Source of the DNA: Vreelandella boliviensis LC1
GTDB lineage: Bacteria; Pseudomonadota; Gammaproteobacteria; Pseudomonadales; Halomonadaceae
Direction of reading: 5' to 3'
Assembly (NCBI RefSeq): GCF_000236035.1
Contig: NZ_JH393257.1
Span: 186,397 to 250,396, forward strand
Length of the DNA stretch: 64,000 bases
Within the stretch, counting starts at the first letter, position 1. Each line of letters begins with the position of its first letter. The notes beneath the pieces are model-generated. The model saw only the letters and a list, made by a program, of their open reading frames with translations, had not been told where the DNA came from and did no database searches. Shown one piece after another: positions 12,203 through 54,923 of this stretch. Both the position numbers and the translations under genes were made by a program.

Positions 12203-12204
12203 GA

Positions 12205-14685: not shown

Positions 14686-14742
14686 GCTGCGCTAAGTTAA
14701 TAACACAGGTTCATAATTAATAACGCTGACAGGAGATACAGA

Positions 14743-15174: not shown

Positions 15175-15210
15175 GCGTCATAACCTAGTTTATTTATTTC
15201 TTGGTTTAAA

Positions 15211-15248
15211 CATTACTGGGGTTAATCATTACTGGGTTTAATCATTAG
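15211..15248. repeat. 16-bp tandem repeat at the 3' end of the racemase gene
   Basis: CATTACTGGGGTTAAT is followed by CATTACTGGGTTTAAT and a partial CATTAG. The stop codon of the minus-strand racemase gene lies in the partial third unit. Confidence 0.8.
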
Positions 15249-41607: not shown

Positions 41608-43167
41608 ATGTATTGTAACCATGTTGATAGGTGGCAAGTTCGTAGGTGGCGGGCTGGTAAGTGGATGGTATTAATAGGCTGTGCGTTCGCCTTACCGGCG
41701 TTTGCCGAAGACGATAGACACTTTAGTGCTGTCATTGAACGCGCCCAACAGCTTGCAGAAGAAGCCTATCAAGCTCCCGAAGAGACATTGCCCGAGGTTT
41801 TGAGTGAGCTTGATTACGATACCTACCGGCAAATTCGTTTTGATCCCGCCCAAGCCTATTGGCAAGACGAGAGCCCTTTTAGCCTGCAGCTATTTCACAG
41901 CGGCTTTATCTTTCAAACCCCGATTGCGCTGAATGTCATTGAAAACGACACGGCAACCCCCCTGCCCTTTTCGGCAGAGAACTACTCCTATGATGGCAAT
42001 GCCGAAAAGCTCAAAGAGTACGATTTGTCCGCTAGTAATCACGCCGGATTTCGCCTCCACTACCCCTTAAACAGCGATGACTACGCCGACGAGTTTGTCG
42101 TTTTTCTTGGAGCTAGCTATTTCCGCCTAGTCGGGCGCGATCAGGCTTACGGGCTCTCCACCCGAGGTCTGGCGATCGATACGGCCTCTTCTGAAGGCGA
42201 AGAGTTCCCGGCATTTCGCGAGTTTTGGCTCTACAAACCCGACGCTGATGGCGAACAGATTGAGCTGCTGGCATTAATGGACAGCCCCTCGGTCAGCGGT
42301 GCCTACCGGTTTATCATTCAGCCGGGGGAGAATACCCAGGTAGAGGTCGAAGCGGAGCTGTTTGCTCGCGAAGATGTTGCCAAGCTGGGCGTCGCCCCGC
42401 TCACCAGCATGTTCACTTACGGTGAGGCAAGCCGCGAGCGGCCGGACGATTTTCGCCCCCAGGTGCACGACTCCGACGGCCTGCTGATGCATAACGGCAG
42501 CGGCGAGTGGATCTGGCGCCCTCTGAGTAACCCATCTCACGTGCGTACCTCTGCCTTTATAGACGACTCTCCCCAAGGCTTTGGGTTAATGCAGCGGGAG
42601 CGTGACTTTAACCGCTATCTTGATACCGAAGCCCAGTACCACCGTCGCCCCAGCCAGTGGGTTGTCCCGCTAGATGAGTGGGGGCCGGGCCGAGTAGAAC
42701 TTGTTGAAATCCCTACCCCCGATGAGACTCACGACAATATTGTCGCCTACTGGGTGGCGGACGATACGCTGGACTCAGGCGACTCCCTGCGCTTGCACTA
42801 CCTCACCCATACGCTGAATAGCCAGCCAGACGCACACAACCTTGGCCGAGCCATTCGCACTCGCCATGGGAGCGCAGGTGTGCCGGGGCAAGCGGACTCT
42901 CCCTCGCAAGATCAGCGTCAGTTTATCGTCGACTTTCAGGGTGGTGCCTTAGACAACATCGCCGCCGACCAGCCCGTCGAGCTCGATATCAGTTCCCAGC
43001 AAGGCAAGGTACTGCTACCTCAGGTCACCGCGCTGCCCAATAATGGCTGGCGGGCGAGTTTCCGCCTGCCCGCTAGCGATCAACCCAGCGATGTTCGCCT
43101 AAGACTGACCTTAAACGGCGAACCGGTTAGCGAAACCTGGAATTATGTGTGGTATCCCGATGCCTAA
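41608..43167 (+). CDS. opgG: Periplasmic glucan biosynthesis protein OpgG
   Basis: A 519-residue periplasmic protein needed for the backbone or branching of osmoregulated periplasmic glucans. The N-terminus carries a signal with an Arg-rich n-region (VRRWRAGKWMVLIGCAFALP, cleavage near AFA). Family motifs: YDTYRQIRFDPAQAYW, LFHSGFIF, FVVFLGASYFRLVGRDQAYGLSTRGLAID. AAGGA lies eight bases before the ATG. The following opgH overlaps by 8 bases. Confidence 0.95.
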   Translation: MYCNHVDRWQVRRWRAGKWMVLIGCAFALPAFAEDDRHFSAVIERAQQLAEEAYQAPEETLPEVLSELDYDTYRQIRFDPAQAYWQDESPFSLQLFHSGFIFQTPIALNVIENDTATPLPFSAENYSYDGNAEKLKEYDLSASNHAGFRLHYPLNSDDYADEFVVFLGASYFRLVGRDQAYGLSTRGLAIDTASSEGEEFPAFREFWLYKPDADGEQIELLALMDSPSVSGAYRFIIQPGENTQVEVEAELFAREDVAKLGVAPLTSMFTYGEASRERPDDFRPQVHDSDGLLMHNGSGEWIWRPLSNPSHVRTSAFIDDSPQGFGLMQRERDFNRYLDTEAQYHRRPSQWVVPLDEWGPGRVELVEIPTPDETHDNIVAYWVADDTLDSGDSLRLHYLTHTLNSQPDAHNLGRAIRTRHGSAGVPGQADSPSQDQRQFIVDFQGGALDNIAADQPVELDISSQQGKVLLPQVTALPNNGWRASFRLPASDQPSDVRLRLTLNGEPVSETWNYVWYPDA

Positions 43168-45175
43168 TACACTGGAGATAACGCCATCGATCCCCTGGTT
43201 GAAAACCCGCCGGGGCATTCTCGCCATCATGGTGCTAATTTCCAGCGTGGCGGGCTGTATCGCCATGAACCGGGTAGCAGCAAGCCTCTCCATGGGCTGG
43301 CAGATCACCATGCTGGTGCTGTTTTCGCTGACCTTTACCTGGATTGCCCTGGCCTTCTGGGGAGCCGTATGCGGCTTTGTGGTGTGCGCGTTGCGGCGCG
43401 ACCCGCTAAGCCTGCGCAAGCTGGATATGGAGGCGCCCAGCGCACGCCTGCTGGTGAGCCGCACCGCAATCGTGATGCCGATTTATGCCGAACCGCCCAT
43501 CCCTACCTTTGCCGGGCTTGAAGCCACCTGCCATTCGCTGCTGAGTTACGCTATCAACGATAGTGATAAGAGCAGCGAGAATGGCGAAGCTGCGCGCCCT
43601 CTGAGCGAGCACTTTGAGGTGTTTATTCTTAGCGACACCCAAGACGCCACTATGGCCGAAGTGGAGGAGACCCACGTGGGGGCGCTACAGCGCCGTTTTG
43701 CTGACAAGCTCGCTATCCACTACCGGCGGCGCCCCAATAATGATGGTCGTAAAGTGGGCAATATTGCTGATTTTTGCCGCCGTTGGGGGCGCAATTACGA
43801 TTATATGATCGTGCTGGACGCCGACAGTTTAATGAGCGGTGCTACGCTACTGCGTATGGTGCAACGCATGCAGCGCCAGCCTAGCATTGGCTTGATCCAG
43901 ACAGTACCGATCCCAGTGGGGCAAAAAACCCTGTTTGGGCGCTTTACTCAGTTTGCGTCAGCGCTGTATAGCCCCATGCTGGCGGCTGGTCAGAGCTTCT
44001 GGCAGGGCGACGCCGCCAACTATTGGGGGCATAACGCCATTATCCGCACCCGTGCGTTTATGGATCACGCGGGCTTGCCCACCCTGCCCGGCAAACCACC
44101 GCTGGGTGGTGACATCATGAGTCACGATTTTGTTGAGGCTGCCCTACTCAAACGCGGCGGGTGGCAGGTGATACTGGATACCACCATTACGACAGCCGTA
44201 TCCCGCCATGACCCTTACGCCAGCGCCTCCCATAATAGTTTTGAAGCGATGCCGAGTAATCTGCTCGACTTTGCCAAGCGTGACCGCCGCTGGCTGCAAG
44301 GCAACCTTCAGCACCTGCGTTTACTGGACGGCACAGGCCTGCACCCACTTAGCCGTATACACTTCTTCTATGGCGCTTTTGCCTATTTATCGTCGTTAGT
44401 GTGGCTAGGGCTTCTCGTGTGTACCAGCATACTGGTCTCTTACCACGCGCTCAGCGATGTTTCCGTAAATGGCCTACCCAAGCCACTCTCGTTGGGCTTA
44501 CTGTCCGTCACTTTGGCGATGTTACTGGCACCTAAACTGCTCGGTTTTACACTGGCCTTCTGGCAAACACCCCACGCCTTTGGTGGTCGTCTTCGCTTAC
44601 TGGCAAGCACCTTTCTGGAAATGCTGTTTGCTGCCTTGCTAGCCCCACTGATGATGGCGTGGCACAGCCTGTTTATTATTAACGTACTGCTGGGACGCTC
44701 TATCGACTGGCAAACCCAGCCCCGTGGTGAACGCTCACTGACCTGGCGTGAAACCTGGCAGCACGTGGGTTGGATGACGTTCACAGGCGTGGTTTGGGCA
44801 GGTGCTATGGTGACCTTTTCGCCGACAGCGTTTGGCTGGCTAACCCCGGCCTGGTTAGGCCTTGTGGGCGCAGCGCCGCTGGTTAAATATACCAGCAGCG
44901 GTACCTGGGGCGGCGTTGTGAGCCATCGTTTTGGGCTGCTTAAAACGCCTAGCATGTGTTTGAAACCGCCGCTGCTGGATGACTTCACCACCCTTGTAAC
45001 CAGCAGTGATCCTCAACCACTCGACCCAGCTACTCAAGCGCCCTTCGCACTTCAGTTGCCCCCCGCTGAGCGTTTTGGCGAAATGCGCTGCCAATCTTTT
45101 CGGCAGTTTGATCGTCAGGGATTGGCAGCAGCGTCCACAACGATACCTACTTCAGCGTCCAGGGAGCCTAACTAA
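43160..45175 (+). CDS. opgH: Glucans biosynthesis glucosyltransferase OpgH
   Basis: Inner-membrane processive beta-glucosyltransferase (GT2) that makes and exports the glucan backbone from UDP-glucose. Residues: two N-terminal helices, the cytoplasmic GT domain with MPIYAEPP, VLDADSLM (DxD) and RDRRWLQGN (Q/RxxRW), then several C-terminal helices. At 671 residues it is shorter than the E. coli enzyme, lacking most of the long N-terminal region. The ATG at 43160 lies inside the end of opgG, a coupling typical of this pair. Confidence 0.95.
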   Translation: MPNTLEITPSIPWLKTRRGILAIMVLISSVAGCIAMNRVAASLSMGWQITMLVLFSLTFTWIALAFWGAVCGFVVCALRRDPLSLRKLDMEAPSARLLVSRTAIVMPIYAEPPIPTFAGLEATCHSLLSYAINDSDKSSENGEAARPLSEHFEVFILSDTQDATMAEVEETHVGALQRRFADKLAIHYRRRPNNDGRKVGNIADFCRRWGRNYDYMIVLDADSLMSGATLLRMVQRMQRQPSIGLIQTVPIPVGQKTLFGRFTQFASALYSPMLAAGQSFWQGDAANYWGHNAIIRTRAFMDHAGLPTLPGKPPLGGDIMSHDFVEAALLKRGGWQVILDTTITTAVSRHDPYASASHNSFEAMPSNLLDFAKRDRRWLQGNLQHLRLLDGTGLHPLSRIHFFYGAFAYLSSLVWLGLLVCTSILVSYHALSDVSVNGLPKPLSLGLLSVTLAMLLAPKLLGFTLAFWQTPHAFGGRLRLLASTFLEMLFAALLAPLMMAWHSLFIINVLLGRSIDWQTQPRGERSLTWRETWQHVGWMTFTGVVWAGAMVTFSPTAFGWLTPAWLGLVGAAPLVKYTSSGTWGGVVSHRFGLLKTPSMCLKPPLLDDFTTLVTSSDPQPLDPATQAPFALQLPPAERFGEMRCQSFRQFDRQGLAAASTTIPTSASREPN

Positions 45176-45957
45176 TGCGGCGCATGGCGCTACAACGACT
45201 GCGTAGCGCGGGTGGGCTAGCCCGCTCGCTGTTTATTTATTGGCGGCCGGGGCGTCAACGCGGGCTCCAGCGCCTGTATCAGCCTTTTATTCAACCCGGT
45301 ACCGTTGCCTTTGATATTGGTGCTCACTTAGGCGACCGTAGCGCGGCTTTTCATGCGCTCGGCGCCAAGGTGGTGGCGCTAGAGCCCCAGCCCGGACTGG
45401 CCAAGTGGTTTAAGCGCCTGGTGAAGCCGCCGACCATCACCTTGCTACCGATGGCTGCAGGCCCGACGAAGGGCTTTGCCGAAATTGCTATTAGCCCCGG
45501 CAACCCAACGCTTGCCACGCTTGCCACTGAGTGGCGAGAGAAAATAGGCGAACGCAACGCAGGCTTTAGCCAGATACGCTGGGAGCAACGCTTGCAGGTG
45601 GCGGTGACCACGCTGGATACGTTAATTGAAGAATATGGCGAACCGAGCTTTATCAAGATCGACGTCGAGGGCTTTGAAGCGGAGGTACTGGCGGGGCTAA
45701 GCTCCCCGGTGCCCGCGCTTTCGGTGGAGTTTGTTAGCGGTTCGTTAGAGGGTAGTCACGCCTGCGTGAGACATCTAAGCCGCCTTGGCGAATACCGTTA
45801 TAATGTGGTGGTCGGTGAGCAGCGCCATTTCCGCTGGGCCGAGTGGCAAACGCCGCAAGCGGTTAGCGAGTGGTTAAATGCCGGAGCCGAACAATTGCCA
45901 TCTGGCGATATTTACGCTTGCCGCTCAGACCATCCGCTACTGCTAGGTTCACTTTGA
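45175..45957 (+). CDS. FkbM-family methyltransferase
   Basis: A 260-residue SAM-dependent methyltransferase. SAM-binding motif AFDIGAHLGDRSAAFHALGA (residues about 43-62), VVALEPQP, then the FkbM hallmark TLDTLIEEYGEPSFIKIDVEGFEAEVLAGL. Its start shares one base with the opgH stop (TAATG), so it belongs to the opg operon and may methylate a glycan or a product of the neighbouring pyrimidine cluster; I cannot tell which. A short gap separates it from the creatininase gene. Confidence 0.92.
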   Translation: MRRMALQRLRSAGGLARSLFIYWRPGRQRGLQRLYQPFIQPGTVAFDIGAHLGDRSAAFHALGAKVVALEPQPGLAKWFKRLVKPPTITLLPMAAGPTKGFAEIAISPGNPTLATLATEWREKIGERNAGFSQIRWEQRLQVAVTTLDTLIEEYGEPSFIKIDVEGFEAEVLAGLSSPVPALSVEFVSGSLEGSHACVRHLSRLGEYRYNVVVGEQRHFRWAEWQTPQAVSEWLNAGAEQLPSGDIYACRSDHPLLLGSL

Positions 45958-45991: not shown

Positions 45992-46765
45992 ATGATTCAC
46001 CACTGGCAAACCCTCACCGCACCGCAGTTAGCCGAGCTCACTCAGCACGACCCGGTAGCGGTACTGGTACTCGGGGCAATTGAACAGCACGGCACTCACC
46101 TCCCTTTAGCCACCGACCTCACCATTGGCGAGGGTCTCCAGGCAGCTATGCTGGAGCAACTAGATCCCTCCCTTAACGTGATCTGCCTACCGCCGATTGC
46201 GGTGGGCGCCAGCGATGAGCACGCCAGCTTCCCCGGCACGCTCAGCCTGCCCGCTCCGCTGGCGATTGCCACTCTAGAAGCCTACGGCGACAGCTTAGCC
46301 CGCACAGGCATTCGTCGCCTGGTGCTGCTTAACAGCCACGGCGGCAATAAGGCGGTGATGGATTTGGCAGGGGTAACCCTACGGCGGCGGCATGGCATGC
46401 GTGTAGTCAAAGCTACCTATACCCGGCTGCCGCCTTTAGAGGGCGCGATGGCCTTTGAAGAGTTGCGTTACGGGTTACACGGCGGGTTACTCGAAACCGC
46501 GATGATGCGCTATTTGGCGCCAGCGCTGGTAAAACTTGACGGCTACCAGGCCACCCCGCCGGCAGCGCCCCAAGGCGATGCCTTGGTTAGCCCAGAAGGT
46601 GCCGCAGCCTTTGCCTGGTTGGCGGAGGACTTAAACGCTCAAGGTGTCGCAGGCGATGCCAGCCACGCCAGCGCTGAATTAGGCGAACAGCTGGTTCAAC
46701 ACTACGCCCGCCAACTGGCAGCCGTGGTGACGGAAACCGCCCGCCTGCCGCCACTCACCAGCTAG
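45992..46765 (+). CDS. Creatininase-family amidohydrolase (ArfB/MftE-like)
   Basis: Metal-dependent amidohydrolase, 257 residues. The metal-site pattern is complete: GAIEQHGTHLPLATDLTIGE (Glu, His, Asp; residues about 29-48), SDEHASFPGTLS, LLNSHGGN (His) and GGLLETAMM (Glu). The family includes creatininase, the peptidase MftE and the archaeal formamide hydrolase ArfB of riboflavin and F420 synthesis. Its neighbour ribA and the stand-alone reductase make an ArfB-like role on a formamidopyrimidine attractive, but this is inference. The stop faces the ribA stop 43 bases away. Confidence 0.85.
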   Translation: MIHHWQTLTAPQLAELTQHDPVAVLVLGAIEQHGTHLPLATDLTIGEGLQAAMLEQLDPSLNVICLPPIAVGASDEHASFPGTLSLPAPLAIATLEAYGDSLARTGIRRLVLLNSHGGNKAVMDLAGVTLRRRHGMRVVKATYTRLPPLEGAMAFEELRYGLHGGLLETAMMRYLAPALVKLDGYQATPPAAPQGDALVSPEGAAAFAWLAEDLNAQGVAGDASHASAELGEQLVQHYARQLAAVVTETARLPPLTS

Positions 46766-46781
46766 CGAGGTCCTGTCATTA

Positions 46782-46828
46782 GGTTAGCGCCGATCGCTTA
46801 ATACGGTTTAGCGCTGGCCGCTTAATAC
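46782..46828. repeat. 23/24-bp tandem duplication at the ribA 3' end
   Basis: Copy 1 (46782-46804) and copy 2 (46805-46828) both read GGTT(T)AGCGC...CGCTTAATAC with few differences. The ribA stop codon (46808-46810) lies in copy 2, so a previous stop may have been duplicated downstream. Confidence 0.8.
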
Positions 46829-47911
46829 GTCTTCCAACAAGTGCCCGCCACGGGTTGCCTTGGCATTAAGGTAACGCTGATTATGGTCGGTAACGCTGCC
46901 GTACAGCGCTTGGCGTGATACCACTTCGATACCACCCTGGCGCAACGCTTCCATCTTCAAGGGGTTGTTGGTCAGCAGTTGCACCTGGTCGATGTTGAGC
47001 GCATTGAGCATATCCACCGCCACCGCATACTGTCGCTCATCGTCACCAAAACCGAGTACTTGATCCGCATCCACGGTATCCAGTCCACCATCCTGCAAGG
47101 TGTAGGCGCGTAATTTATTGGCTAGGCCAATGCCCCGGCCCTCTTGCGCCAAATAGAGCAGCACGCCGCCGCCCATGGCTTGAATATCCGCCACGGCGTT
47201 GCGCAACTGCTCGCCGCAGTCGCAGCGCAGGCTGCCAAACAGGTCGCCGGTTAAACACGCCGAGTGTAGGCGCAGTGGCACCGCGCCTTCCCAGCGCTCC
47301 GGCTTACCGATCACCACAGCAACGTGTTCACGCAGGCCGTCCGGTTCCCGGAAGAGTACAAAGCGGCTGTCAGCAGCACCCTCAAGAGGAATATTCGCTT
47401 CACTCACCCGCTTGAGCATACCCGACGACCCGGCAAGGCACTGTTCAGCATCTTTAGCGGTGACTTCCAGCAGCCGCCCTTCTGCCAGCTGCCGCTCAAT
47501 ATCCGCTGCGGCCTCTTCACTAACAAAGGCGCAGAGCGCTGCGGGGATTAGCAAGGCGCGGCGCATTAGGGTAACCGCGCCTAGTTCGGCTAATCCTGCC
47601 GGTTTTAAGCTGTTTAGTAGCCCACTAGCGGGTTTCGAAAGCATTTCCGCAGTGGCCAGGTTCTGCAGCTCACTGGTCGTAATGGGGGCCACTAGCGGCA
47701 AGCTGGCGGCCTCGGCGGTTAAGCTCATGCCCAGCGCTGCTAGGCGGTGACGGGTAAGCACCAGCGAAGGCCGCTCGCCTGCCAACTGGGCAAGCGCTTC
47801 GACTGACTCGCTACCTTCCAGCGCCTGCACTAGCAAACGTTTCTCACCAGCATTCACCACCACTGGCAATCCACGACGGATATCGAAAATAGCGCGTTCA
47901 ATCTGGTACAT
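46808..47911 (-). CDS. ribA: GTP cyclohydrolase II with N-terminal extension
   Basis: Opens GTP to 2,5-diamino-6-ribosylamino-pyrimidinone phosphate, releasing formate and pyrophosphate. The C-terminal half (residues about 170-367) is a complete RibA domain: zinc cysteines in CLTGDLFGSLRCDCGEQL, catalytic LAQEGRGIGLANK and LLTNNPLKMEAL. The N-terminal 170 residues resemble a degraded DHBP-synthase-like domain without its acidic catalytic motif. The start has a strong AGGAGG. It is divergent from the pyrimidine reductase gene; no DHBP synthase, lumazine synthase or riboflavin synthase is nearby. Confidence 0.93.
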   Translation of the reverse strand: MYQIERAIFDIRRGLPVVVNAGEKRLLVQALEGSESVEALAQLAGERPSLVLTRHRLAALGMSLTAEAASLPLVAPITTSELQNLATAEMLSKPASGLLNSLKPAGLAELGAVTLMRRALLIPAALCAFVSEEAAADIERQLAEGRLLEVTAKDAEQCLAGSSGMLKRVSEANIPLEGAADSRFVLFREPDGLREHVAVVIGKPERWEGAVPLRLHSACLTGDLFGSLRCDCGEQLRNAVADIQAMGGGVLLYLAQEGRGIGLANKLRAYTLQDGGLDTVDADQVLGFGDDERQYAVAVDMLNALNIDQVQLLTNNPLKMEALRQGGIEVVSRQALYGSVTDHNQRYLNAKATRGGHLLEDVLSGQR

Positions 47912-49886
47912 GTAGGCCTCCTGGCTTCCTTACGAGGGGGATGGTGCACGCTTGCACTGAGTTGTTTGCTCTCAACTGCACAACTTCTTGCTCTGAGCAA
48001 CTTGCTCTCAACTGACCAGAGCCCGCATGATGGAGCGGTTTTTTTAGCACGGAGGCGTCATGCCCGAATCCCATATCAACATTATTGCGCTGGAAGATGC
48101 CTGGGAATGGCTGCTGGCGTTGCGTCATCAGCGCTGTTGCGATGTGGCGATCACCTTGACGCCAAACGGCGAGTGGCAAACAGACAAACCGGTCGCCGCT
48201 GAGGCGCGTGAACTGCTCGATTGCCTGACCCCACTGGCCAGCCGACCGGCGTGGGTGGTGGCTCAACTGGGGCAGAGCTTGGATGGCCGCATTGCCACAG
48301 AAAGTGGTCACTCTCACTACATCAACGGTCACGAGAGTTTGGTTCACCTGCACCGTCTGCGCGCCATGGTCGACGCGGTGGTCGTCGGCGCGGGTACCGC
48401 CAGCGCCGATAATCCGCAGTTGACCGTGCGCCACGTTAGCGGCACTAACCCGACGCGGGTGGTGCTGGATCCACGAGGCCGCATTCCCAACGACTTGGCG
48501 CTGCTGAACACCGATAGCGCCCCGACGCTGCATATAGTCGGCTCTGCCGTGGGGGCTGAGTCGCAGGCGACGACGAGCTTGGCCCACGTTGAACGTTGCG
48601 TGTTGCCGCTGAATGCCAGCAGCCAGTTCAACCCCGATGATGTTGTCACCCTGCTGGCCGAGAAGGGCCTGCCGCGGGTACTGGTAGAAGGCGGCGGCAT
48701 TACGGTTTCTCAGTTTATCGAAGCGGGTGCCGTTGACCGGCTGCACCTGCTGGTCGCCCCATTGCTGATCGGTTCCGGCAGGCCAGGACTTCAGATGACG
48801 CCCATCGAGACGCTTGAGAGTGCGCTGCGCCCGCCCACGCGAACCTTCCGCTGCGGTGACGACACGCTGTTCGACCTGCGACTGCGGGATACCACCGCCT
48901 GAGGACTGGGCTTTTTCACGACGGCTAAGCGCCACCCAAATGCCGGGTAGACTCGCCAGCAACACCAGCACACCGTAAGCCAACGACACTGCGACTCCTT
49001 GGGCAGAAGGCAGCCCAACCATCGCCCAGACCCCAGCCGCGGCGCCTTCACGCAGCCCCCAACCGGCCACCGAAAATGGAATCAGCATGGCCAGCAGCAG
49101 TACCGGTGTGAGCGCAAGCACTTCCAGCGTCGGTAGCTCTACGCCAATCGCCCGGGCCGCACAGACCATTACTAAGCCATAACTCAGCACAATCACTAGC
49201 GACGACAGCAACTGCCGAGGCCATACGCCGCGCTGCAATAAGCCACGCTTTACATCACGAGCCAGGGCTTGGCACCAGTCCGGAAGCCTTGCCAACCAAT
49301 GGCTAAAAAGTTGACGCAACAACAGGCCGCTGACGATAACCAGCGCAAGGCCTGCCATCACGCTTAAGCCCACTGCAGTGATCACGGCCCCACCCAACGC
49401 GGCATACCAGAGCGGCGATAACAGCAGCGCCGTTAGTGTTAGCACCACCACTGCGACCTGCCCCGAGGCGCGTTCAATAATGACCGCTCGCCACGCGCGG
49501 CCCCTGGACTGCGCTTGCGTGGCATGGCGGTGCGCCCGCCCGGCGTCGCCTAATACACCGCCTGGTAGAAGTTGATTGACCAGCAGAGCCAAGTAGTACT
49601 CACGCAGGGCGTAAGCAAACCGCAGCGGCACATCAATAAGTCCGGCGGTAAACTGCCAGCGCCAGGCGCAAAGCATGATCTGTAGCGTGCTGATGGCTAA
49701 CGCCAGCATGACCCATTCAGCGGAGAAGCGCTGCACCTCTGCCACGATAGCCTGAGGCTCAACCCATAGCGCTACCGCACCCAGCAACGCCAAGCTAACC
49801 ACCACGCGTCTAAGCCATGGGCTTTGCAAGCCTATGCTTTTAGTACAAACGCTTAGCCGAGTGAACATCCCTTGAACAGGTCCCAT
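47898..49886 (-). CDS. Flippase-like membrane protein (lysylphosphatidylglycerol-synthase TM family) with a long antisense read-through tail
   Basis: The first 325 or so residues (49886 to about 48905) form a recognisable eight-helix membrane protein of the LPG-synthase TM / UPF0104 family, with YALREYYLALLVNQLLPGGVLGDAGRAHRH and VLLLAMLIPFSVAGWGLREGA. Relatives flip or handle lipid-linked intermediates. The expected stop near 48900 is absent, and the frame continues about 335 codons through the antisense of the reductase gene to 47898, inside the start of ribA. The tail has no domain and is Gln/Arg/His-rich, as expected of antisense reading. I start at 49886, five bases after the glycosyltransferase stop, with GAGG upstream. 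Confidence 0.75.
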   Translation of the reverse strand: MGPVQGMFTRLSVCTKSIGLQSPWLRRVVVSLALLGAVALWVEPQAIVAEVQRFSAEWVMLALAISTLQIMLCAWRWQFTAGLIDVPLRFAYALREYYLALLVNQLLPGGVLGDAGRAHRHATQAQSRGRAWRAVIIERASGQVAVVVLTLTALLLSPLWYAALGGAVITAVGLSVMAGLALVIVSGLLLRQLFSHWLARLPDWCQALARDVKRGLLQRGVWPRQLLSSLVIVLSYGLVMVCAARAIGVELPTLEVLALTPVLLLAMLIPFSVAGWGLREGAAAGVWAMVGLPSAQGVAVSLAYGVLVLLASLPGIWVALSRREKAQSSGGGIPQSQVEQRVVTAAEGSRGRAQRTLKRLDGRHLKSWPAGTDQQWGDQQVQPVNGTRFDKLRNRNAAAFYQYPRQALLGQQGDNIIGVELAAGIQRQHATFNVGQARRRLRLSPHGRADYMQRRGAIGVQQRQVVGNAASWIQHHPRRVSAANVAHGQLRIIGAGGTRADDHRVDHGAQTVQVNQTLVTVDVVRVTTFCGNAAIQALPQLSHHPRRSAGQWGQAIEQFTRLSGDRFVCLPLAVWRQGDRHIATALMTQRQQPFPGIFQRNNVDMGFGHDASVLKKPLHHAGSGQLRASCSEQEVVQLRANNSVQACTIPLVRKPGGLHVPD
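48023..48045 (+). terminator. Weak hairpin plus T tract upstream of the reductase gene (possible attenuator)
   Basis: CCGC (48023-48026) and GCGG (48035-48038) can pair ahead of seven T residues, 15 bases before the reductase start. The stem is short. Just upstream GCTCTCAACTG occurs twice. The 147-bp gap to ribA otherwise shows no FMN riboswitch. Confidence 0.35.
48060..48902 (+). CDS. Stand-alone RibD-type pyrimidine reductase
   Basis: NADPH-dependent reductase of the dihydrofolate-reductase fold, 280 residues. After about 75 unusual N-terminal residues come QLGQSLDGRIATESGHSHYI, RLRAMVDAVVVGAGTASADNPQLTVR, TRVVLDPRGRIP and LVEGGGITVSQFIEAGAVDRL, all diagnostic of the RibD C-terminal domain. 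There is no deaminase domain, as in archaeal and fungal reductases that act before deamination. A strong GGAGG precedes the ATG. The whole gene is covered on the other strand by the flippase frame. Confidence 0.92.
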   Translation: MPESHINIIALEDAWEWLLALRHQRCCDVAITLTPNGEWQTDKPVAAEARELLDCLTPLASRPAWVVAQLGQSLDGRIATESGHSHYINGHESLVHLHRLRAMVDAVVVGAGTASADNPQLTVRHVSGTNPTRVVLDPRGRIPNDLALLNTDSAPTLHIVGSAVGAESQATTSLAHVERCVLPLNASSQFNPDDVVTLLAEKGLPRVLVEGGGITVSQFIEAGAVDRLHLLVAPLLIGSGRPGLQMTPIETLESALRPPTRTFRCGDDTLFDLRLRDTTA

Positions 49887-49890
49887 AGGC

Positions 49891-51894
49891 TTAGGCCTCT
49901 TTCCTGGGCTTGGCAAACTGGGGCTTGGCAAACAGAGGCTTGGCAAACAGATCGCGATGCCCCACCCAAATACCCAGTTCGCCATTGGCCACCGCTTGCT
50001 GGCGCTGCTGCAGCCAGGTGGCAATGCGCGCCGCGGCTTCCGGGGTTTGCTCGGTGGCGGCTTCGGCCCAGCCTTCAAGCAGCGCCATCATCAGCGGCTG
50101 CTGAGCATGGTTGCCAGCGGCAAGCTGCCAAGGCGTTTCGGCTTGCTCGACGCGATAGTGCGCCCCCTCTAACGCGGCGACTAACGCCTGGTGGGCCAGA
50201 CCGCCCAACGCATCGCCCAAGCCTTTATCGCGCTGCTGATGGGCAATAAACATCGCCAGCAGCCAGTGGTCTTCGTCATCCAGCACCGGCGCGCCTTGAG
50301 AGTCTATAAAGTGCCATTCGCCGGTCACGCTAAGCGCTATCAGCAGCGCTTGCTGCTGCCCGGCAATACGGGTCACCAAGGCGTCAATCCACTGCTGGGA
50401 GACCAGGTCCAGCAGCGCCGATGCGGTCACCAAATGCGCATCGTCGAGCGGCACATCGGCAAGCGGCTCCAGCGATACGCAGTGCGTCTCAACGGCCACG
50501 GGCTGCCCTCGGCTATCGCTTAGGCCAGCGGCGCGCTGGCGCGCCTGGGCTAACAAAAGGGCATCGTGATCGATCAGCTTCCAGCGCTGATGCCCGCTTA
50601 GGCGCGGCGCCAGAAAGCGCATATTACTGCCCCGGCCACAGCCAAGATCCGCTATCAACGGCGTTGGGGCGCGCGCGCTCAACCACTCTGCGGCAAACTC
50701 GGCAAGGCGCTGGCTGCGCGAATCAACATCAGCTGCCTCACGCAGCGTCAGCCAGTCGGACTCAAATTGGCTCCCTGCACGCAAGTGCGAGGAATCGGCT
50801 AGTGAGTTTGTTGTGGAACTGCTTGATAGGTTGGCTGGCGCAGTTAACGCCGCTGCAAAATTAGCCCCGGCTTCCTGCCAGTCGCTTAACCCATCGCGGG
50901 CCTGGGCAGCTCCCTGGCGCAATTGGTGGCGCAGCGCGTCTTCATGGCAAAAGCGGCTCAAGGTGTCTTGAAGCGCGTCGGCATCACCCGGCTCAACGCT
51001 CAACCCGGCGCCTGTAGGTAAGGTATCGCGTAGTGCACCGCCGGTGGTGGTAATCACCGGCAGGCCGTGGGCCAAGGCTTCGGTGACCACCATGCCGTAG
51101 CCTTCATACCAGGAGGGCAGCACCAGCGCGTGGGCGCTGCGATAAGCCGCTTCAAGCGTCTCGCTATCGCACTCGCCGTGAAGCTGCACGCTACCCTGCA
51201 AGCCGTTCTGATCAATCAATTGCTGCACGTGCTGGGTAAAGACGGTATCTCGTGCGCCGCCGTAGCAGTCGCACTGCCAGTGGTTACCGGCAACGCCCGA
51301 CAACGCTTGAATAAGAATATCCTGTCCTTTGCGCGGCGTTAGCGTTGCCACACATAGCAAACGGAGTGTCTCACCAGACTCTGCTGCGGGGCTAATCGGC
51401 GCCTGGGCAACGCCCGGCTCAACCACGGTGATACTGGTATTGAGTGGTATGGCGTAGTGGGCCGCCAGCTCCGGTAAGCGCCGAGCGGTAAAATGGCTGG
51501 TGACGATAATCCGCGCCACGGGGGCAAGCGCGGTTAACTCACTACGATGAAAGCGCTGCTGATCGGCCTCGTTAAGGCCCAGCTCATCGCCTAGAGGGTG
51601 GTGCAGCAACGCTGTGATTTCCAGCCGCTGGCCATGTTGAGCAACTACCTCGGGCAGCGCCCCCATGGCTAGGCCATCAATTACCACCGACGATTGAGCG
51701 GGAAGCGACTCAAGGGCCTGGGTGAGCGCTGCTGCCGCCTCGGCATCCGCATCAGGGAATGTACCCGCCAAGCCCACAACGTCAATTTCCCAGCCCTGGT
51801 CACGCATGGCTGAGACAATCTGGGCATCGTAGATATAGCCACCGGTACGCTGAGCTGGGTCACCGGCAACGATAAGGGTAAACCGCTTACTCAT
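49891..51894 (-). CDS. Fusion of GT4 glycosyltransferase and SAM-dependent methyltransferase
   Basis: A 667-residue cytoplasmic two-domain protein. Residues 1-350 are a GT-B glycosyltransferase of family 4 with VATLTPRKGQDILIQALSG and the EX7E motif in SWYEGYGMVVTEALAHGLPV. After a Ser/Thr-rich linker, residues about 410-600 form a methyltransferase with IADLGCGRGSNMRFLAPRLSG. The C-terminus ends in three LFAKP-type repeats encoded by a 15-bp tandem repeat. It overlaps the PTPS-like gene upstream (ATGA) and leads into the flippase gene, so sugar transfer, methylation and membrane transport look coupled. Confidence 0.9.
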   Translation of the reverse strand: MSKRFTLIVAGDPAQRTGGYIYDAQIVSAMRDQGWEIDVVGLAGTFPDADAEAAAALTQALESLPAQSSVVIDGLAMGALPEVVAQHGQRLEITALLHHPLGDELGLNEADQQRFHRSELTALAPVARIIVTSHFTARRLPELAAHYAIPLNTSITVVEPGVAQAPISPAAESGETLRLLCVATLTPRKGQDILIQALSGVAGNHWQCDCYGGARDTVFTQHVQQLIDQNGLQGSVQLHGECDSETLEAAYRSAHALVLPSWYEGYGMVVTEALAHGLPVITTTGGALRDTLPTGAGLSVEPGDADALQDTLSRFCHEDALRHQLRQGAAQARDGLSDWQEAGANFAAALTAPANLSSSSTTNSLADSSHLRAGSQFESDWLTLREAADVDSRSQRLAEFAAEWLSARAPTPLIADLGCGRGSNMRFLAPRLSGHQRWKLIDHDALLLAQARQRAAGLSDSRGQPVAVETHCVSLEPLADVPLDDAHLVTASALLDLVSQQWIDALVTRIAGQQQALLIALSVTGEWHFIDSQGAPVLDDEDHWLLAMFIAHQQRDKGLGDALGGLAHQALVAALEGAHYRVEQAETPWQLAAGNHAQQPLMMALLEGWAEAATEQTPEAAARIATWLQQRQQAVANGELGIWVGHRDLFAKPLFAKPQFAKPRKEA
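49907..49951. repeat. 15-bp tandem repeat, three copies, at the 3' end of the glycosyltransferase fusion gene
   Basis: GGCTTGGCAAACTGG, GGCTTGGCAAACAGA and GGCTTGGCAAACAGA follow one another and encode the repeats LFAKP, LFAKP and QFAKP near the C-terminus, just before the stop codon. Confidence 0.9.
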
Positions 51895-52289
51895 AGCGCG
51901 CCTTCGTAGCTTGCCCAGGCCACATGGGATTCATGCAGCTTGACCTCCAAATGGGAAATCCCCTTGGCGGTGATGCCCATTTTGCCTTCACCAATCGCTT
52001 TGGCGAGCTGGTCAAAGATCACCTTAGCCATAAACTCGGTAGTCGTGTTTTTACCAGCAAATTCAGGCACTTCATCCAGATTACTGAAGTTGTAGTTTGC
52101 TAGTACCGATTTCACCGTTTCGCTGGCAAGGCCGATATCGATCACTAGGCCATCCTCATCCAGTTCAGGCCGCTGAAAGACCACATCGACAACATAGGTA
52201 GCGCCATGGGTACGCTGGGCAGGGCCAAAGATCTCCCCATTAAAGCTGTGGGCGATCATAAAGTGGTCACGGACACATAAACGGAACAT
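51891..52289 (-). CDS. 6-pyruvoyltetrahydropterin synthase/QueD-fold protein with altered active site
   Basis: A 132-residue T-fold protein. Alignment by eye with QueD: the first zinc His is kept (MIAHSF), but the HGH ligand pair reads HGA, the catalytic Cys ahead of it is missing (FGPAQRTHGA), and the catalytic His of DHHxLND is replaced (NYNFSNLDEVP). The C-terminal KLHESHVAWASYEG retains a Glu. It is therefore unlikely to make 6-pyruvoyl- or 6-carboxy-tetrahydropterin in the usual way. Strong GGAG before the ATG. Placed between an MDR dehydrogenase and the glycosyltransferase fusion in one operon. Confidence 0.85.
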   Translation of the reverse strand: MFRLCVRDHFMIAHSFNGEIFGPAQRTHGATYVVDVVFQRPELDEDGLVIDIGLASETVKSVLANYNFSNLDEVPEFAGKNTTTEFMAKVIFDQLAKAIGEGKMGITAKGISHLEVKLHESHVAWASYEGAL

Positions 52290-52316
52290 AGAGACTCCAA
52301 CTGATAGGTAAGTAGG

Positions 52317-53336
52317 TTATGAGGAGTAGCGCAGGCGGTGGCAGAGTTCAACACTGCCGGGGCCAAACAGCTTAGGGGCAAGCGTGGGCAATTGGGCAAA
52401 GTCACTTTCCCCGCTGATCAGTGCATCCAAGCGCTCGTCCACCAGCAGGCTCAACGCTAGCCGAAGGCGGCGCTGGTAGTCCCAGCGGGGGCGTAGTTTC
52501 GGCGACAGTTGGCCTACTTGGCTGGCCTTGAGCGTCAGCCGCTGGGAGTGGAAAGCCCCCCCCAACGGAATCGCGACATCCCCCTCGCCAAACCAGCTCA
52601 TTTCGATAATGCGCCCTTCACTGCCGACTAATTCAAGGGCATGGCGTAAACCCGCTGATTGGCCACTGGCATGGATCACGCAATCTTGGTCGTAAGTAGC
52701 TTGTTCGGGAGTGCAGAATGCCACGCCCAACTGCTCGGCCAATTGGCGACGCTCTGGGTTGGTATCGACTAACTGGACGGTAACGCCGGGTATCTGGGCG
52801 CATAGATACGCCACCAAAGCGCCCACCACCCCCGCGCCAATCACACTGATCCGCTCACCCAGCATCGGTTCGGCGTCCCACACGCCATTAATGGCGGTTT
52901 CCATATTGGCAGCTAATACGGCGCGTTTGGCAGGTACGTTGGCGGGCACTTCCAGCACTGCCGAAGCAGGCACGATGTATTGATCTTGATGGGGAAACAG
53001 GCAGAAGATGGTTTTATTTAACAGCGTGTCCGGTCCTTGTTCTACGCGGCCAACGCTGCAGTAACCGTACTTGACCGGTGCAGGGAATTCACCCGATTGA
53101 AAGGGGGCTCGCATGCGTGAAACTTCGCTTTCGGGTACGCGACCATTAAACACCAGCGATTCGGTGCCGCGACTGATACCGCTGTACAAGGTGCGTACGA
53201 GCACCTCATCCTGGATAGGGGGGATAAGTTGTTCACGCCGCAACTCGCCTTGTGATGGGTTGATTACCCAGAAGGCGGTGGCCGAGGTTTCTTTGGCAAC
53301 ATAGCTGTTTCTGCCAACATCGTCAGGCGCCGACAT
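52317..53336 (-). CDS. MDR-superfamily dehydrogenase lacking the catalytic zinc motif
   Basis: A 339-residue NAD(P)-dependent oxidoreductase. The Rossmann motif VIGAGVVGALVAYLCAQ is near residue 165. The N-terminal catalytic domain has TLYSGISRGTESLVFNG where zinc enzymes have a Cys-Gly-x-Cys-Gly-Thr-Asp pattern, so catalytic zinc is probably absent, as in BchC-like enzymes. AAGGA lies seven bases before the ATG. It is first in the operon with the PTPS-like and glycosyltransferase genes and has an unusual 5' leader. Confidence 0.88.
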   Translation of the reverse strand: MSAPDDVGRNSYVAKETSATAFWVINPSQGELRREQLIPPIQDEVLVRTLYSGISRGTESLVFNGRVPESEVSRMRAPFQSGEFPAPVKYGYCSVGRVEQGPDTLLNKTIFCLFPHQDQYIVPASAVLEVPANVPAKRAVLAANMETAINGVWDAEPMLGERISVIGAGVVGALVAYLCAQIPGVTVQLVDTNPERRQLAEQLGVAFCTPEQATYDQDCVIHASGQSAGLRHALELVGSEGRIIEMSWFGEGDVAIPLGGAFHSQRLTLKASQVGQLSPKLRPRWDYQRRLRLALSLLVDERLDALISGESDFAQLPTLAPKLFGPGSVELCHRLRYSS

Positions 53337-53538
53337 GAGCGTTCCTTTTCGTTACGAGCCCCAATAAACCGGGCTCTTTTTCATTCCGTTGAAAGTGGCG
53401 TGGCGCCAATCGTCTGCAAGTTAAGGCGCTGCTAGTAAAGACGCTGCTAGTAAAGGCTAAGTTACACGCTGCGTTCCGTGGCCCCTGACCATAATGGAGG
53501 GCCACACACCGGGTGACTCCATGCAGAACAGTTTTCAA
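53323..53538 (-). CDS. Candidate leader ORF upstream of and overlapping the MDR dehydrogenase
   Basis: A 71-codon frame starts with TTG at 53538, preceded at ideal distance by GGAGGTG, the best ribosome site in the region, and ends 14 bases inside the dehydrogenase gene. The predicted peptide (MKTVLHGVTRCVALHYGQ...) has no recognised domain. It spans two hairpins and a tandem repeat. It may be a regulatory leader peptide or simply part of a structured 5' leader. It is not a confident protein gene. Confidence 0.3.
   Translation of the reverse strand: MKTVLHGVTRCVALHYGQGPRNAACNLAFTSSVFTSSALTCRRLAPRHFQRNEKEPGLLGLVTKRNAHVGA
53356..53381 (+). terminator. Terminator-shaped hairpin just upstream of the MDR dehydrogenase start
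   Basis: GAGCCC and GGGCTC pair around a 9-nt loop and are followed on the plus strand by TTTTT. No plus-strand gene ends here, so it either ends an antisense transcript or acts as a 5' hairpin directly before the dehydrogenase ribosome site on the minus strand. Confidence 0.5.
53427..53456. repeat. 15-bp tandem repeat in the dehydrogenase leader
   Basis: CGCTGCTAGTAAAGA and CGCTGCTAGTAAAGG lie side by side in the 391-bp gap between the dehydrogenase and the CDP-alcohol phosphatidyltransferase gene. A separate 7-bp hairpin (GTGGCCC / GGGCCAC) lies at 53478-53505. The part 53560-53727 is AT-rich and probably holds the divergent promoters. Confidence 0.75.
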
Positions 53539-53727
53539 TGGCTCACCTCCTTCAGCGTAGCGGGTGAAAAGAAAATATTCGATTAACCATTTGCAACAGC
53601 TGAAACTAATTCAACTATTATTTTGATCATATGGACAACCCTACCTTCTTCTACAAGAATGGTACATATAAAAATAGTTGCATCATTTATTTCAACTGCG
53701 GACAGCGACGCCGCTTCGTGAGCACCC

Positions 53728-54456
53728 ATGCCGCTTTTTTCCAACACCTCTTCTTTTACCCTGCCTAAGCGGCTTTACAGCGCCGCTGAGTTACTGCTGG
53801 GTGGCTTACTGCTTATAGCTGTGGGAAAGGCCCTGCCGCTTTTAATGGCGACCCCCGCTAACTGGTGGGTGGCCATAGGCTTGTACACGTTGATATCCAC
53901 CCTAGTTATCATCTTCTGGCCTTTCGGTTCATTGGGTTGGGCAAACCGGGTCACGCTGGCCCGTGCAGTATTGGTTGCACTAGTGGCGGGCGCGCTCGCC
54001 GCCAATGTCTTTGTAGGGGCAATATGGCAGTGGCTGGCTATCGCGGTAATCGCCCTGCTGCTGGATGGCGTCGATGGCTGGATTGCCAGGCGCACCAAAA
54101 GCCACTCCCGGTTCGGCGCGCGTTTTGATATGGAGTTGGATGCCCTGCTGATTTTGCTACTGTGTGCGGGATTGCTGCGACTGGAGTCATTGGGCCTTTG
54201 GGTGCTAATGATTGGCGGAATGCGCTACTGCTTTATCGCTGCCAGTTGGCAGTTCCCGTGGCTCTCACAACCGCTGTTTGATAGCTTTCGCCGCAAGGCC
54301 GTTTGTGTCTGGCAGGTGGTGGCGCTGTTGCTGGCATTAACCCCGTTGACCTCTCACTTTATGGCCAACCTTCTCGCCATCAGTGCGCTGATATCGTTAA
54401 CGTATTCGTTTGGTTTTGACGTTTGGTGGCTATATCGCAAAGCACAAAGAGACTAG
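53728..54456 (+). CDS. CDP-alcohol phosphatidyltransferase family membrane protein
   Basis: A 242-residue inner-membrane enzyme with about six helices. The catalytic signature DG-x2-AR-x8-G-x3-D-x3-D is complete: LDGVDGWIARRTKSHSRFGA followed by RFDMELD. It transfers a phosphatidyl or similar group from a CDP-activated donor to an alcohol. It is divergent from the dehydrogenase operon and may use a product of that cluster as acceptor; this is inference. The ribosome site is weak. Its end overlaps the convergent GFA gene by 4 bases. Confidence 0.9.
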   Translation: MPLFSNTSSFTLPKRLYSAAELLLGGLLLIAVGKALPLLMATPANWWVAIGLYTLISTLVIIFWPFGSLGWANRVTLARAVLVALVAGALAANVFVGAIWQWLAIAVIALLLDGVDGWIARRTKSHSRFGARFDMELDALLILLLCAGLLRLESLGLWVLMIGGMRYCFIAASWQFPWLSQPLFDSFRRKAVCVWQVVALLLALTPLTSHFMANLLAISALISLTYSFGFDVWWLYRKAQRD

Positions 54457-54923
54457 CGCTCCAACCCCTGGCGCTGGTGCCATTCGGCCAGGCTTTCATC
54501 CGGGTATTCATCGAAGCATTTATCTTGGAACTGCGCATTTACCTCGACCCAGTCGGCACGGCTTCCCAGCATCATGTGCGTTCGTTTGGGCGGTGTGGGT
54601 AAAGGAGTATCGACCGCTGAGGCGAAGGGATGCACAAGATCGGGCCAATCGGGGTCGTAAACCCACAATGATGTGGCGCAGTGCTTGCAGAAATGCCGCT
54701 CTCCCGTGCTTTGCACGCCGTTGATGACCGCGCGATAGACTGAGATGTGCTCATTTCCACTCACATTGAGGGTTTTACTCTCTCCACTGAGATTGATGGC
54801 GTAGCCACCACCGCCCGCCGTTTTGCGGCATACAGAACAGTAACAGCGATTGAAAGGATAAGGGTGGTGAGACTTCACACTGAACGTCACTGCCTGGCAG
54901 TGGCATGATCCTTTGAGCAACAT
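54453..54923 (-). CDS. GFA family (glutathione-dependent formaldehyde-activating enzyme-like) zinc protein
   Basis: A 156-residue protein with the GFA/CENP-V zinc fold. Cysteine pairs are visible: GSCHCQAVTFSV near residue 5, RCYCSVCRKTAGG near 27 and FCKHCATSLWVYDP near 78. Such proteins bind zinc structurally; true formaldehyde activation is shown for few members. A strong GGAGG precedes the ATG. The gap to the next gene (54924-55106) shows only CT-rich sequence. Confidence 0.91.
   Translation of the reverse strand: MLLKGSCHCQAVTFSVKSHHPYPFNRCYCSVCRKTAGGGGYAINLSGESKTLNVSGNEHISVYRAVINGVQSTGERHFCKHCATSLWVYDPDWPDLVHPFASAVDTPLPTPPKRTHMMLGSRADWVEVNAQFQDKCFDEYPDESLAEWHQRQGLER

Follow-up and report, generated by a model that had tools for sequence, protein, structure and literature searches.

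What do a GTP cyclohydrolase II, a RibD-type reductase and a QueD-like protein have in common with the glycosyl transfer and membrane genes that surround them in Vreelandella boliviensis LC1? The window, by which we mean the whole stretch of 64,000 nt analysed here (GCF_000236035.1, NZ_JH393257.1, positions 186,397-250,396, forward strand), was read through open reading frames and Pfam profiles, ten of its genes being scanned with Pfam. A first-pass annotation had assigned eight genes, at 45992-54456, to a candidate undescribed, dedicated pathway from GTP to a glycosylated or lipid-linked product. Open frames and Pfam place all eight where it had them, but these limits are too narrow, as an LtaS-like gene (39705-41369, minus strand) and an FkbM-family methyltransferase gene (45175-45957, plus strand; PF05050, 5.6e-17; 34 bp 5' of the creatininase gene) recur as well. 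The notion of a dedicated pathway is strengthened by a widely repeated gene set that is distinct from riboflavin synthesis, whereas the word 'undescribed' goes too far and an ArfB-like step is not clearly called for in the window.

Recurrence and fusion of the genes

One genome collection yielded at least 582 confirmed relatives of the T-fold (QueD-like) gene. We compared the neighbourhoods of the closest 80 of these at least 582 (the named loci; 61 with full and 19 with short flanks) and of 80 further, actinobacterial loci. Among the closest 80, the dehydrogenase is present in 80, the methyltransferase partner of the glycosyltransferase in 79, the glycosyltransferase in 78, the CDP-alcohol phosphatidyltransferase in 68, the RibD-type reductase in 62, the flippase in 57, the creatininase in 43, GTP cyclohydrolase II in 42, the FkbM methyltransferase in 23 and the LtaS-like gene in 21. 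The further 80 loci hold the dehydrogenase in 79, the flippase in 75, the phosphatidyltransferase in 71, the reductase in 35, the creatininase in 34, the LtaS-like gene in 31 and the FkbM methyltransferase in two. Eight set genes thus occur in 42 to 80 of the 80 closest loci, against 0, 1, 4, 4, 3 and 0 for six other window genes around the set, which serve as an inner control. The co-occurrence spans four phyla, so that the conservation in other genomes on which the first-pass annotation had staked its pathway does exist. Where present, the dehydrogenase, glycosyltransferase, methyltransferase and flippase genes share the strand of the T-fold gene and lie no more than 5 kb from it in nearly all 160 loci (dehydrogenase within 5 kb: 79/80 named, 78/80 further).

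The set is not equally complete everywhere. GTP cyclohydrolase II is absent within the flank from 38 and the creatininase from 37 of the 80 named loci, 19 of which have short flanks. Across the 61 full-flank loci, the phosphatidyltransferase is missing in nine, the LtaS-like gene in 46, and cyclohydrolase, creatininase and reductase together in three (L072, L108, L113). Of the 34 actinobacterial loci with a creatininase, 31 have no reductase. Small sets of dehydrogenase, T-fold protein and reductase, free of glycosyltransferase, methyltransferase and phosphatidyltransferase, occur in L111, L178 (which keeps the flippase) and L183 (which has the cyclohydrolase), and suggest a ring-making module apart from decoration.

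Several of these genes are fused. Glycosyltransferase and methyltransferase form one protein in the window and occupy separate open frames in many other loci; the reductase domain is joined to GTP cyclohydrolase II in L183 and to the creatininase in L093, and the LtaS-like enzyme to the phosphatidyltransferase in ten actinobacterial loci. We propose that these fusions join consecutive steps.

A T-fold protein with an altered active site

The QueD-like gene (51891-52289, minus strand; PF01242, 5.5e-27) encodes a protein with a single PDB match, over its full length, to SCO6650 of Streptomyces coelicolor (3d7j, E 1.2e-49), whose solved structure stands in the PDB as 'Uncharacterized protein'. 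The NCBIfam QueD model scores 47 bits against a cut-off of 89. The altered active site noticed earlier is confirmed by profile alignment to solved PTPS structures: Cys is replaced by Ala (FGPAQ), HGH by HGA and LDH by LNY. The canonical zinc site HGH and the Cys-Asp-His triad are not found in the window protein; as aligned, it has lost the PTPS catalytic triad and the third zinc ligand. F21, G22, P23, A24 and Q25 are invariant in 20/20 alignment rows, as is Glu120, and none of queC, queE and queF turned up in the Pfam scan of ten window genes.

The five invariant residues form the FGPAQ signature of PTPS-IV, a group reported in 2017 with PF00925 and PF01872 neighbours (cluster-node 62; PMC5445326); both families likewise adjoin the T-fold gene in the window. 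Because the protein belongs to the SCO6650 family and this neighbourhood is already in PMC5445326, 'undescribed' is too strong for the cluster. The section of that paper on PTPS-IV labels PF00925 'GTP cyclohydrolase I / FolE2' and says nothing of lipid, glycosyl, flippase or LtaS-like partners, of fusions or of a pathway. New here are the LtaS-like gene beside the set, its fusion to the phosphatidyltransferase, and the creatininase-reductase and cyclohydrolase-reductase fusions. Our literature search found no described product for the repeated set.

Proposed entry from GTP

GTP cyclohydrolase II (46808-47911, minus strand; PF00925 at residues 168-333) does carry the extra N-terminal part ascribed to it, about 165 residues ahead of PF00925. 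It matches NF006456 over its full length at 336 bits, under the cut-off of 464, and its N-terminus aligns weakly with that of the host RibBA-like protein, a DHBP synthase domain (hhalign probability 17%, E 0.0015, 56 columns). The enzyme keeps the equivalents of E. coli C54, C65 and C67, which we take to be zinc ligands, and of Y105, D126 and R128, presumably catalytic. In Actinobacteria, the presence of a creatininase tracks cyclohydrolases without the Tyr105 equivalent, a link that amounts to about one to two changes on the tree (sign test p 1). The window enzyme retains this tyrosine; an ArfB-like step, invoked in the first reading, is therefore not clearly needed there, and the creatininase-family protein may be redundant or act elsewhere.

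The latter (45992-46765, plus strand; PF02633, 9e-63) fits a predicted BrbF/ArfB formamidase in family and genomic context, and by analogy we propose this role for it. The substrate of such formamidases is 2-amino-5-formylamino-6-ribosylaminopyrimidinone phosphate. In Sinorhizobium, creatininase-family BrbF deformylates the formyl intermediate (PMC9478397). A true creatininase (EC 3.5.2.10) was considered and rejected, the NCBIfam equivalog scoring 80 bits against a cut-off of 235; the window protein has HGGN where creatininase 1q3k has HYEN.

The reductase (48060-48902, plus strand; PF01872, 2.4e-42) matches no deaminase domain, as had been noted. Its best NCBIfam models include bacterial RibD as well as the archaeal reductase, and its best PDB matches are archaeal by a small margin; on this evidence it may or may not prefer the diamino substrate. 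Archaea proceed by ArfA, ArfB and ArfC. With that route and with the Sinorhizobium BrbF system the window set would share the opening of the ring, deformylation through a creatininase-family protein and a RibD_C-type reductase. The window differs in having GTP cyclohydrolase II in place of III and no downstream riboflavin genes, which the host carries elsewhere. DHBP synthase, lumazine synthase, riboflavin synthase and deaminase are indeed absent from the ten window genes scanned, as is a riboflavin operon (deaminase, RibB, RibH and RibE beside RibA). The cluster cyclohydrolase and reductase are not the only ones of the host, so that the other condition that would have told against the pathway does not hold either: separate RibA, RibD, RibBA-like and lumazine synthase (RibH) genes exist, with the second RibD_C match, the RibBA-like gene and RibH on contig C4. 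At least two PF00925 matches were found in 14/14 sampled cluster genomes.

Candidate tailoring and membrane genes

The BchC-like MDR dehydrogenase (52317-53336, minus strand) matches PF00107 under the cut-off (2e-6), and its best NCBIfam model is bchC at 66 bits against a cut-off of 291. The fusion of a GT4 glycosyltransferase and a SAM methyltransferase lies at 49891-51894 (minus strand; PF00534, PF13692, PF13649). The flippase-like LPG_synthase_TM gene (PF03706, 7e-37) runs from 49868 to about 48903 on the minus strand, its 3' end being uncertain as the frame is open as far as 47898.

An intergenic region (53337-53727) separates the dehydrogenase gene from the divergent phosphatidyltransferase gene (53728-54456, plus strand; PF01066, 2.3e-14). 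The product has a PgsA-like predicted fold (AF2 pLDDT 91.4; Z 15.1 to PGP synthase 7drj). D113, D116, G117, A120, R121, G130, D134 and D138 are invariant in 32 alignment rows, and by sequence the catalytic motif, which we take to be DxxDGxxAR...GxxxDxxxD, is intact.

The LtaS-like protein (554 aa, a predicted LtaS/EptC/GacH-like membrane phosphotransferase of the sulfatase/alkaline phosphatase superfamily) scores 627 bits with a profile seeded and built from the neighbour genes of other genomes, and at 23.8 it narrowly misses the Pfam threshold for sulfatases (25); phmmer against the PDB gave no recognition. The top Foldseek match of its AF2 model (pLDDT 83.7) is LtaP (4uop, E 1.5e-8), and the model resembles LtaP, LtaS, EptC and GacH with weak TM-scores (query-normalised 0.26-0.38 among the matches listed). 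By its predicted fold it may belong with the phospho-headgroup transferases LtaS, GacH, EptC and OpgB, from which it differs by the fusion to a phosphatidyltransferase in some Actinobacteria. Delivery to the membrane, as first suggested, gains support from this gene and its fusion.

A proposed pathway and its alternatives

The sequence shows the gene families, their recurrent co-occurrence and fusions, a T-fold protein stripped of the PTPS catalytic residues and a phosphatidyltransferase with its motif intact. From these we propose, with a chance close to even, that the set serves a pathway of its own in which GTP is converted to a heterocycle bound to the envelope. We infer its reactions, their order and the product; on the best reading, this would be a diaminopyrimidine or pterin bearing sugar and methyl groups, linked to a lipid and exported from the cytoplasm. 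GTP cyclohydrolase II would open GTP to 2,5-diamino-6-ribosylamino-4-pyrimidinone phosphate, the creatininase-family protein removing formate where the cyclohydrolase halts at the formyl stage, and the reductase would yield the ribityl form, its 2-amino group kept because a deaminase is absent. A hydroxyl of the side chain may then be oxidised by the dehydrogenase; the T-fold protein, deprived of a full zinc site, may grip the 2-amino-4-oxo edge via Glu120 and close or rearrange the ring to a pterin-like product. Sugar and methyl group would be added by the glycosyltransferase-methyltransferase. The phosphatidyltransferase would then couple the resulting molecule to a CDP-activated lipid for flipping by the LPG_synthase_TM protein; in those loci that encode it, the LtaS-like enzyme would pass the phospho-headgroup on to an extracytoplasmic acceptor. 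If the lipid linkage holds, several phyla would include bacteria with a so far unrecognised lipid or glycan that carries a pteridine or pyrimidine.

A bolder version, which we consider decidedly unlikely, is a pterin route independent of GTP cyclohydrolase I. Reductase (C1') and dehydrogenase (C2') would between them arrive at the Amadori-type 2'-keto intermediate that this enzyme forms within a single active site, the T-fold protein would close the pyrazine, and the glycosylated, methylated pterin phosphate would become a phospholipid headgroup for the LtaS-like enzyme to move onto a glycan of the surface or periplasm. Lipids or glycans bearing a pterin would then form a class of their own, extending from Halomonas to Streptomyces.

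A rather unlikely alternative is a secondary metabolite resembling a pteridine that is soluble and secreted, the membrane genes serving its export only. In its favour, the pseudoiodinine cluster, similar to the toxoflavin genes, likewise has methyltransferases beside a GTP cyclohydrolase and a RibD-type protein. Of the seven psd genes listed in PMC9911603, none encodes a T-fold protein, a phosphatidyltransferase, a flippase or an LtaS-like enzyme. Also in its favour, SCO6652 of S. coelicolor rises by about log2 4 in the aerial and spore stages, according to data in PMC3610822. From the order of tags, it is probably the cluster methyltransferase. The frequency of the phosphatidyltransferase and its fusion to the LtaS-like enzyme fit a lipid-linked intermediate better, and the T-fold gene is present in 55/61 genomes of the host genus, a breadth unusual for antibiotic clusters. 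The toxoflavin cluster presumably also lacks T-fold, phosphatidyltransferase, flippase and LtaS-like genes.

An alternative or auxiliary riboflavin module, supplying a second ribityl-pyrimidine pool for flavins beside unrelated envelope genes, is improbable. Cyclohydrolase, formamidase-type protein and reductase are early riboflavin pathway families, and two riboflavin modules were proposed in Sinorhizobium by the authors of PMC9478397. Against this, dehydrogenase, T-fold and glycosyltransferase/methyltransferase genes are kept more constantly than those of riboflavin type in the closest 80 of at least 582 loci, and in an unbiased survey of 37 neighbourhoods every unlabelled group besides the flippase and LtaS-like genes was confined to three loci or fewer, groups of two or three loci being partly identified. 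We give equally little credence to two independent modules, for ring chemistry and for envelope lipid or glycan synthesis, that merely share neighbourhoods: the small sets and 13/80 further (actinobacterial) loci with no cyclohydrolase, creatininase or reductase nearby speak for them, the shared strand and close spacing of dehydrogenase, glycosyltransferase, methyltransferase and flippase against. A role of PTPS-IV proteins for F420, or for some other pteridine cofactor already known, is very improbable. PMC5041015 mentions, as unpublished, that PTPS-IV takes part in F420 synthesis, but this concerns archaea; no F420 gene was recognised among the neighbour groups (only recurrent groups being named) and the lipid and envelope genes would be left without explanation.

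For the lipid-linked pathway that we prefer, the acceptor in Halomonas may be the periplasmic glucan that belongs with two adjacent genes, mdoG (41608-43167, plus strand; PF04349, 1e-186; periplasmic glucan synthesis) and mdoH, which overlaps it (43145-45175, plus strand; named from position and translation, without a Pfam call). OpgB acts on periplasmic glucans. We regard mdoG and mdoH as neighbours and a possible source of the acceptor, their membership of the set being uncertain: they occur in 16 and 15, respectively, of the closest 80 of at least 582 loci, and a hand listing places five mdoG and six mdoH of these outside Halomonadaceae. The mdoGH link is mostly one of Halomonadaceae.

Conservation of the gene set

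All eight genes grouped together by the first-pass annotation, which encode a creatininase-family hydrolase, GTP cyclohydrolase II (GCH2), a RibD_C reductase, a flippase, a glycosyltransferase-methyltransferase (GT-MT) fusion, a QueD-like T-fold protein, an MDR dehydrogenase and a CDP-alcohol phosphatidyltransferase, were recovered as open frames at the proposed positions and strands, and their families are borne out by Pfam and NCBIfam. In the window, the dehydrogenase, QueD-like, GT-MT and flippase genes are co-directional, separated by short gaps or overlapping; the phosphatidyltransferase gene is divergent from this run, and the reductase and creatininase genes lie on the opposite strand. 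The flippase frame (47898-50078, minus strand) is stop-free down to 47898 and formally antisense across the entire reductase gene. In this region the nearest relative, L048, aligns gap-free across the 1200 bases compared.

The comparison of QueD-like neighbourhoods proposed in the first-pass annotation showed the set to be repeated across 80 named and 80 further loci. Scanning a one-genome-per-species collection confirmed at least 582 relatives among 594 stretches; the named loci are the best 80 of these, hence biased to close relatives, and 19 have shorter flanks. By record titles, these best 80 of at least 582 comprise 58 Pseudomonadota, 17 Actinomycetota, 3 Gemmatimonadota and 2 Acidobacteriota. 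With iterated profiles, they carry the dehydrogenase in 80 cases (61 of the 61 loci with full flanks), the methyltransferase in 79 (60), the glycosyltransferase in 78 (59), the phosphatidyltransferase in 68 (52), RibD_C in 62 (49), the flippase in 57 (45), the creatininase in 43 (36) and GCH2 in 42 (35). Two other window genes, encoding an FkbM methyltransferase (45175-45957) and an LtaS-like membrane phosphotransferase (39705-41369), recur in 23 (18) and 21 (15), respectively. As an inner control, six other genes around the set are present in 0 to 4 of the 80.

The further actinobacterial loci (L134-L213) were hand-picked from strong hits in three lists (8; 42 of 96; 30 of 77), avoiding contig starts; L199 is cut off by a contig end. 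They contain the dehydrogenase in 79 cases, the methyltransferase in 77, the glycosyltransferase and flippase in 75 each, the phosphatidyltransferase in 71, GCH2 in 56, RibD_C in 35, the creatininase in 34, the LtaS-like gene in 31 and FkbM in 2. There is overlap between the two sets: GCH2 is identical in L092 and L142 and in L125 and L153, and the contigs of L108 and L200 are equally long. In every locus of either set that has them, the glycosyltransferase, methyltransferase and flippase genes share the strand of the QueD-like gene, as does the dehydrogenase gene in 79 of 80 named and 76 of 79 further loci.

The QueD-like gene occurs in 55 of 61 genomes of the host genus and 60 of 101 of the family. 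Across 398 genomes of the phylum there were 104 matches, with 27 genomes at E 1.4e-33 or better; the remaining, weak matches are probably ordinary QueD. One family member (G533:C1:775419-775580) seems to have lost the middle of the gene, only residues 1-31 and 108-132 matching. L055, a metagenome-assembled contig titled Rhodovulum, encodes a QueD-like protein 83% identical to that of the window, more Halomonas-like than alphaproteobacterial, and is possibly misbinned.

Alternative explanations

There is good support for the set as a dedicated conserved pathway. Our best explanation, in which GTP is converted to a diaminopyrimidine or pterin that is glycosylated, methylated, lipid-linked and carried out of the cytoplasm, is offered tentatively as a whole, at slightly less than even confidence. 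Lipid linkage of the product is the likelier reading. Alternatively, two independent modules, one for ring chemistry and one for envelope lipid or glycan, could merely share neighbourhoods. Because 13 of the 80 further loci are without GCH2, RibD_C and creatininase alike within the range covered, we marked the best explanation down slightly and this alternative up, and still consider the latter improbable.

A simple riboflavin operon was rejected on account of the host paralogues and the gene content. The first-pass annotation had allowed that the cyclohydrolase and reductase might be the cell's only riboflavin genes of their type. This idea falls, since other copies exist in the host and PF00925 matches number two or more in each of the 14 cluster-bearing genomes sampled. 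In the host (4.2 Mb in 21 contigs) there are three such matches: besides the window copy, a RibA of 212 aa and a RibBA-like protein of 399 aa (G000:C4:14224, L003). In the GCH2 half of the latter, where the alignment is uncertain, one of three zinc cysteines is matched and none of Tyr105, Asp126 and Arg128; the DHBP synthase half looks intact. Contig C4 groups a second RibD_C match (397-aa frame), the RibBA-like gene and lumazine synthase. A viral origin of the set was discarded, as no relative was confirmed in the viral_contigs scan.

The T-fold protein and its Streptomyces counterparts

The sole PDB match of the window T-fold protein is 3d7j (E 1.2e-49, full length), that is SCO6650, a structure reportedly by Spoonamore et al. 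in 2008. Alignment to solved PTPS upholds the altered active site: alanine replaces both the catalytic Cys and the third zinc-ligand His, and Asn-Tyr replaces the Asp-His pair. Across 20 rows, His14, His28 and Glu120 do not vary. The protein carries the FGPAQ signature termed PTPS-IV. PMC5445326 describes a 561-sequence cluster preferentially with this signature and with PF00925 (there named a cyclohydrolase I) and PF01872 as neighbours. According to PMC5041015, citing unpublished work, PTPS-IV has a role in F420 synthesis of archaea. Of the cluster called undescribed at first pass, the T-fold group was thus previously known, and the pathway itself is in no paper found by our literature search, which covered neither subscription journals nor bioRxiv, so that absence is not proven.

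In the Streptomyces order (L116), T-fold, glycosyltransferase, methyltransferase, flippase, creatininase and GCH2 form six consecutive tags. Since SCO6650 is the T-fold protein and SCO6655 is listed as GCH II in PMC2853524, SCO6652 is probably the cluster methyltransferase. According to PMC3610822, SCO6652 is up by log2 0.8 at 24 h (substrate stage), 4.3 at 48 h (aerial stage) and 4.1 at 72 h (spore stage).

Proposed entry steps and ring formation

The product of GCH II is 2,5-diamino-6-ribosylamino-4-pyrimidinone phosphate. For SCO6655, Spoonamore and Bandarian are said to have found the formyl product as endpoint because Met replaces the catalytic Tyr. In Sinorhizobium, deformylation of the formyl intermediate is carried out by BrbF, a creatininase-family enzyme (PMC9478397).

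Among 98 aligned cluster GCH2 rows (L179, 77 aa, was left out as too short), 46 lack Tyr at the position of E. coli Tyr105, and the creatininase is in the cluster for 45 of them, L213 being the exception. The 52 rows with Tyr divide into 26 with and 26 without creatininase. Creatininase is missing for all 25 actinobacterial Tyr rows; the loci combining it with Tyr105 are that of the window, 24 more from proteobacteria and a single acidobacterial one. In the actinobacterial clade the residue varies (His, Met, Leu, Gln). On the GCH2 tree the Tyr state changes twice and the creatininase state three times; L109 (Halomonas halmophila, about 14189-15397), with Ile on a long branch and creatininase present, is a second loss of Tyr. 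The idea that the creatininase makes up for a cyclohydrolase unable to deformylate fits the pattern in Actinobacteria only, and with two Tyr changes the link is not independent statistical support; the pattern makes a consistent picture, not a statistical proof.

The creatininase and reductase share one open frame in L093 (614 aa), as do GCH2 and reductase in L183 (505 aa); a flippase-GCH2 frame in L171 was judged uncertain. The match of the extra N-terminal domain of GCH2 to DHBP synthase, of which it could be a relic, is weak. In creatininase-type actinobacterial clusters (26 of 34 loci surveyed), no unlabelled gene group occurred in more than six loci, and the representative of a group in six looks like a spurious frame.

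In L111, L178 and L183 the dehydrogenase, T-fold and reductase genes stand without glycosyltransferase, methyltransferase and phosphatidyltransferase (L183 also has GCH2, L178 a flippase), and from this gene content they may be read as a ring-making module. The dehydrogenase would oxidise C2', after which the ring would close, a route that is chemically attractive because the same keto intermediate as with cyclohydrolase I would arise. In L111 (Streptomyces sp. CBMA152, 8891-14429), a trypsin/AAA/TPR protein stands beside these genes in place of the sugar and lipid genes.

Proposed exit steps and neighbouring genes

The phosphatidyltransferase catalytic motif is complete in 32 rows. Its model (pLDDT 91.4) is nearest to PGP synthase (Z 15.1, rmsd 2.7, 166 aligned), followed by PIP synthase (Z 11.9), helical folds giving middling Z easily. 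The closest solved structure to the cluster glycosyltransferase, Tll1590 (6kih), is uninformative on donor or acceptor.

LtaP, LtaS, EptC and GacH are proteins by which phospho-headgroups are moved from lipids to glycans or lipids. They are among the best fold matches, at low TM-scores, of the LtaS-like model (pLDDT 83.7). An unbiased survey of 37 neighbourhoods had returned this protein, initially unlabelled, in 11, and its profile finds the window gene 39705-41369 with 627 bits. Ten of the 31 actinobacterial loci having it encode it as a fusion in which it follows the phosphatidyltransferase; this count leaves out L076, where both domains lie in one frame with overlapping ranges.

The mdoG, mdoH and FkbM genes lie, in this order, between the LtaS-like gene and the creatininase gene. 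Of the 80 named loci, 16 have mdoG, and 5 of these 16 fall outside Halomonadaceae (by a list hand-drawn from record titles and including L055); none of the 80 further loci has it. A probable mannose-1-phosphate guanylyltransferase gene of ManC type (38299-39708, minus strand; translation read by eye) shares 4 bases at its start with the end of the LtaS-like gene; being present in 1 of 80 named loci, it was dropped as source of the donor sugar. A GFA-family gene (54453-54923, minus strand) adjoins the phosphatidyltransferase gene; 6 of 80 named loci have it, and it is apparently a local neighbour.
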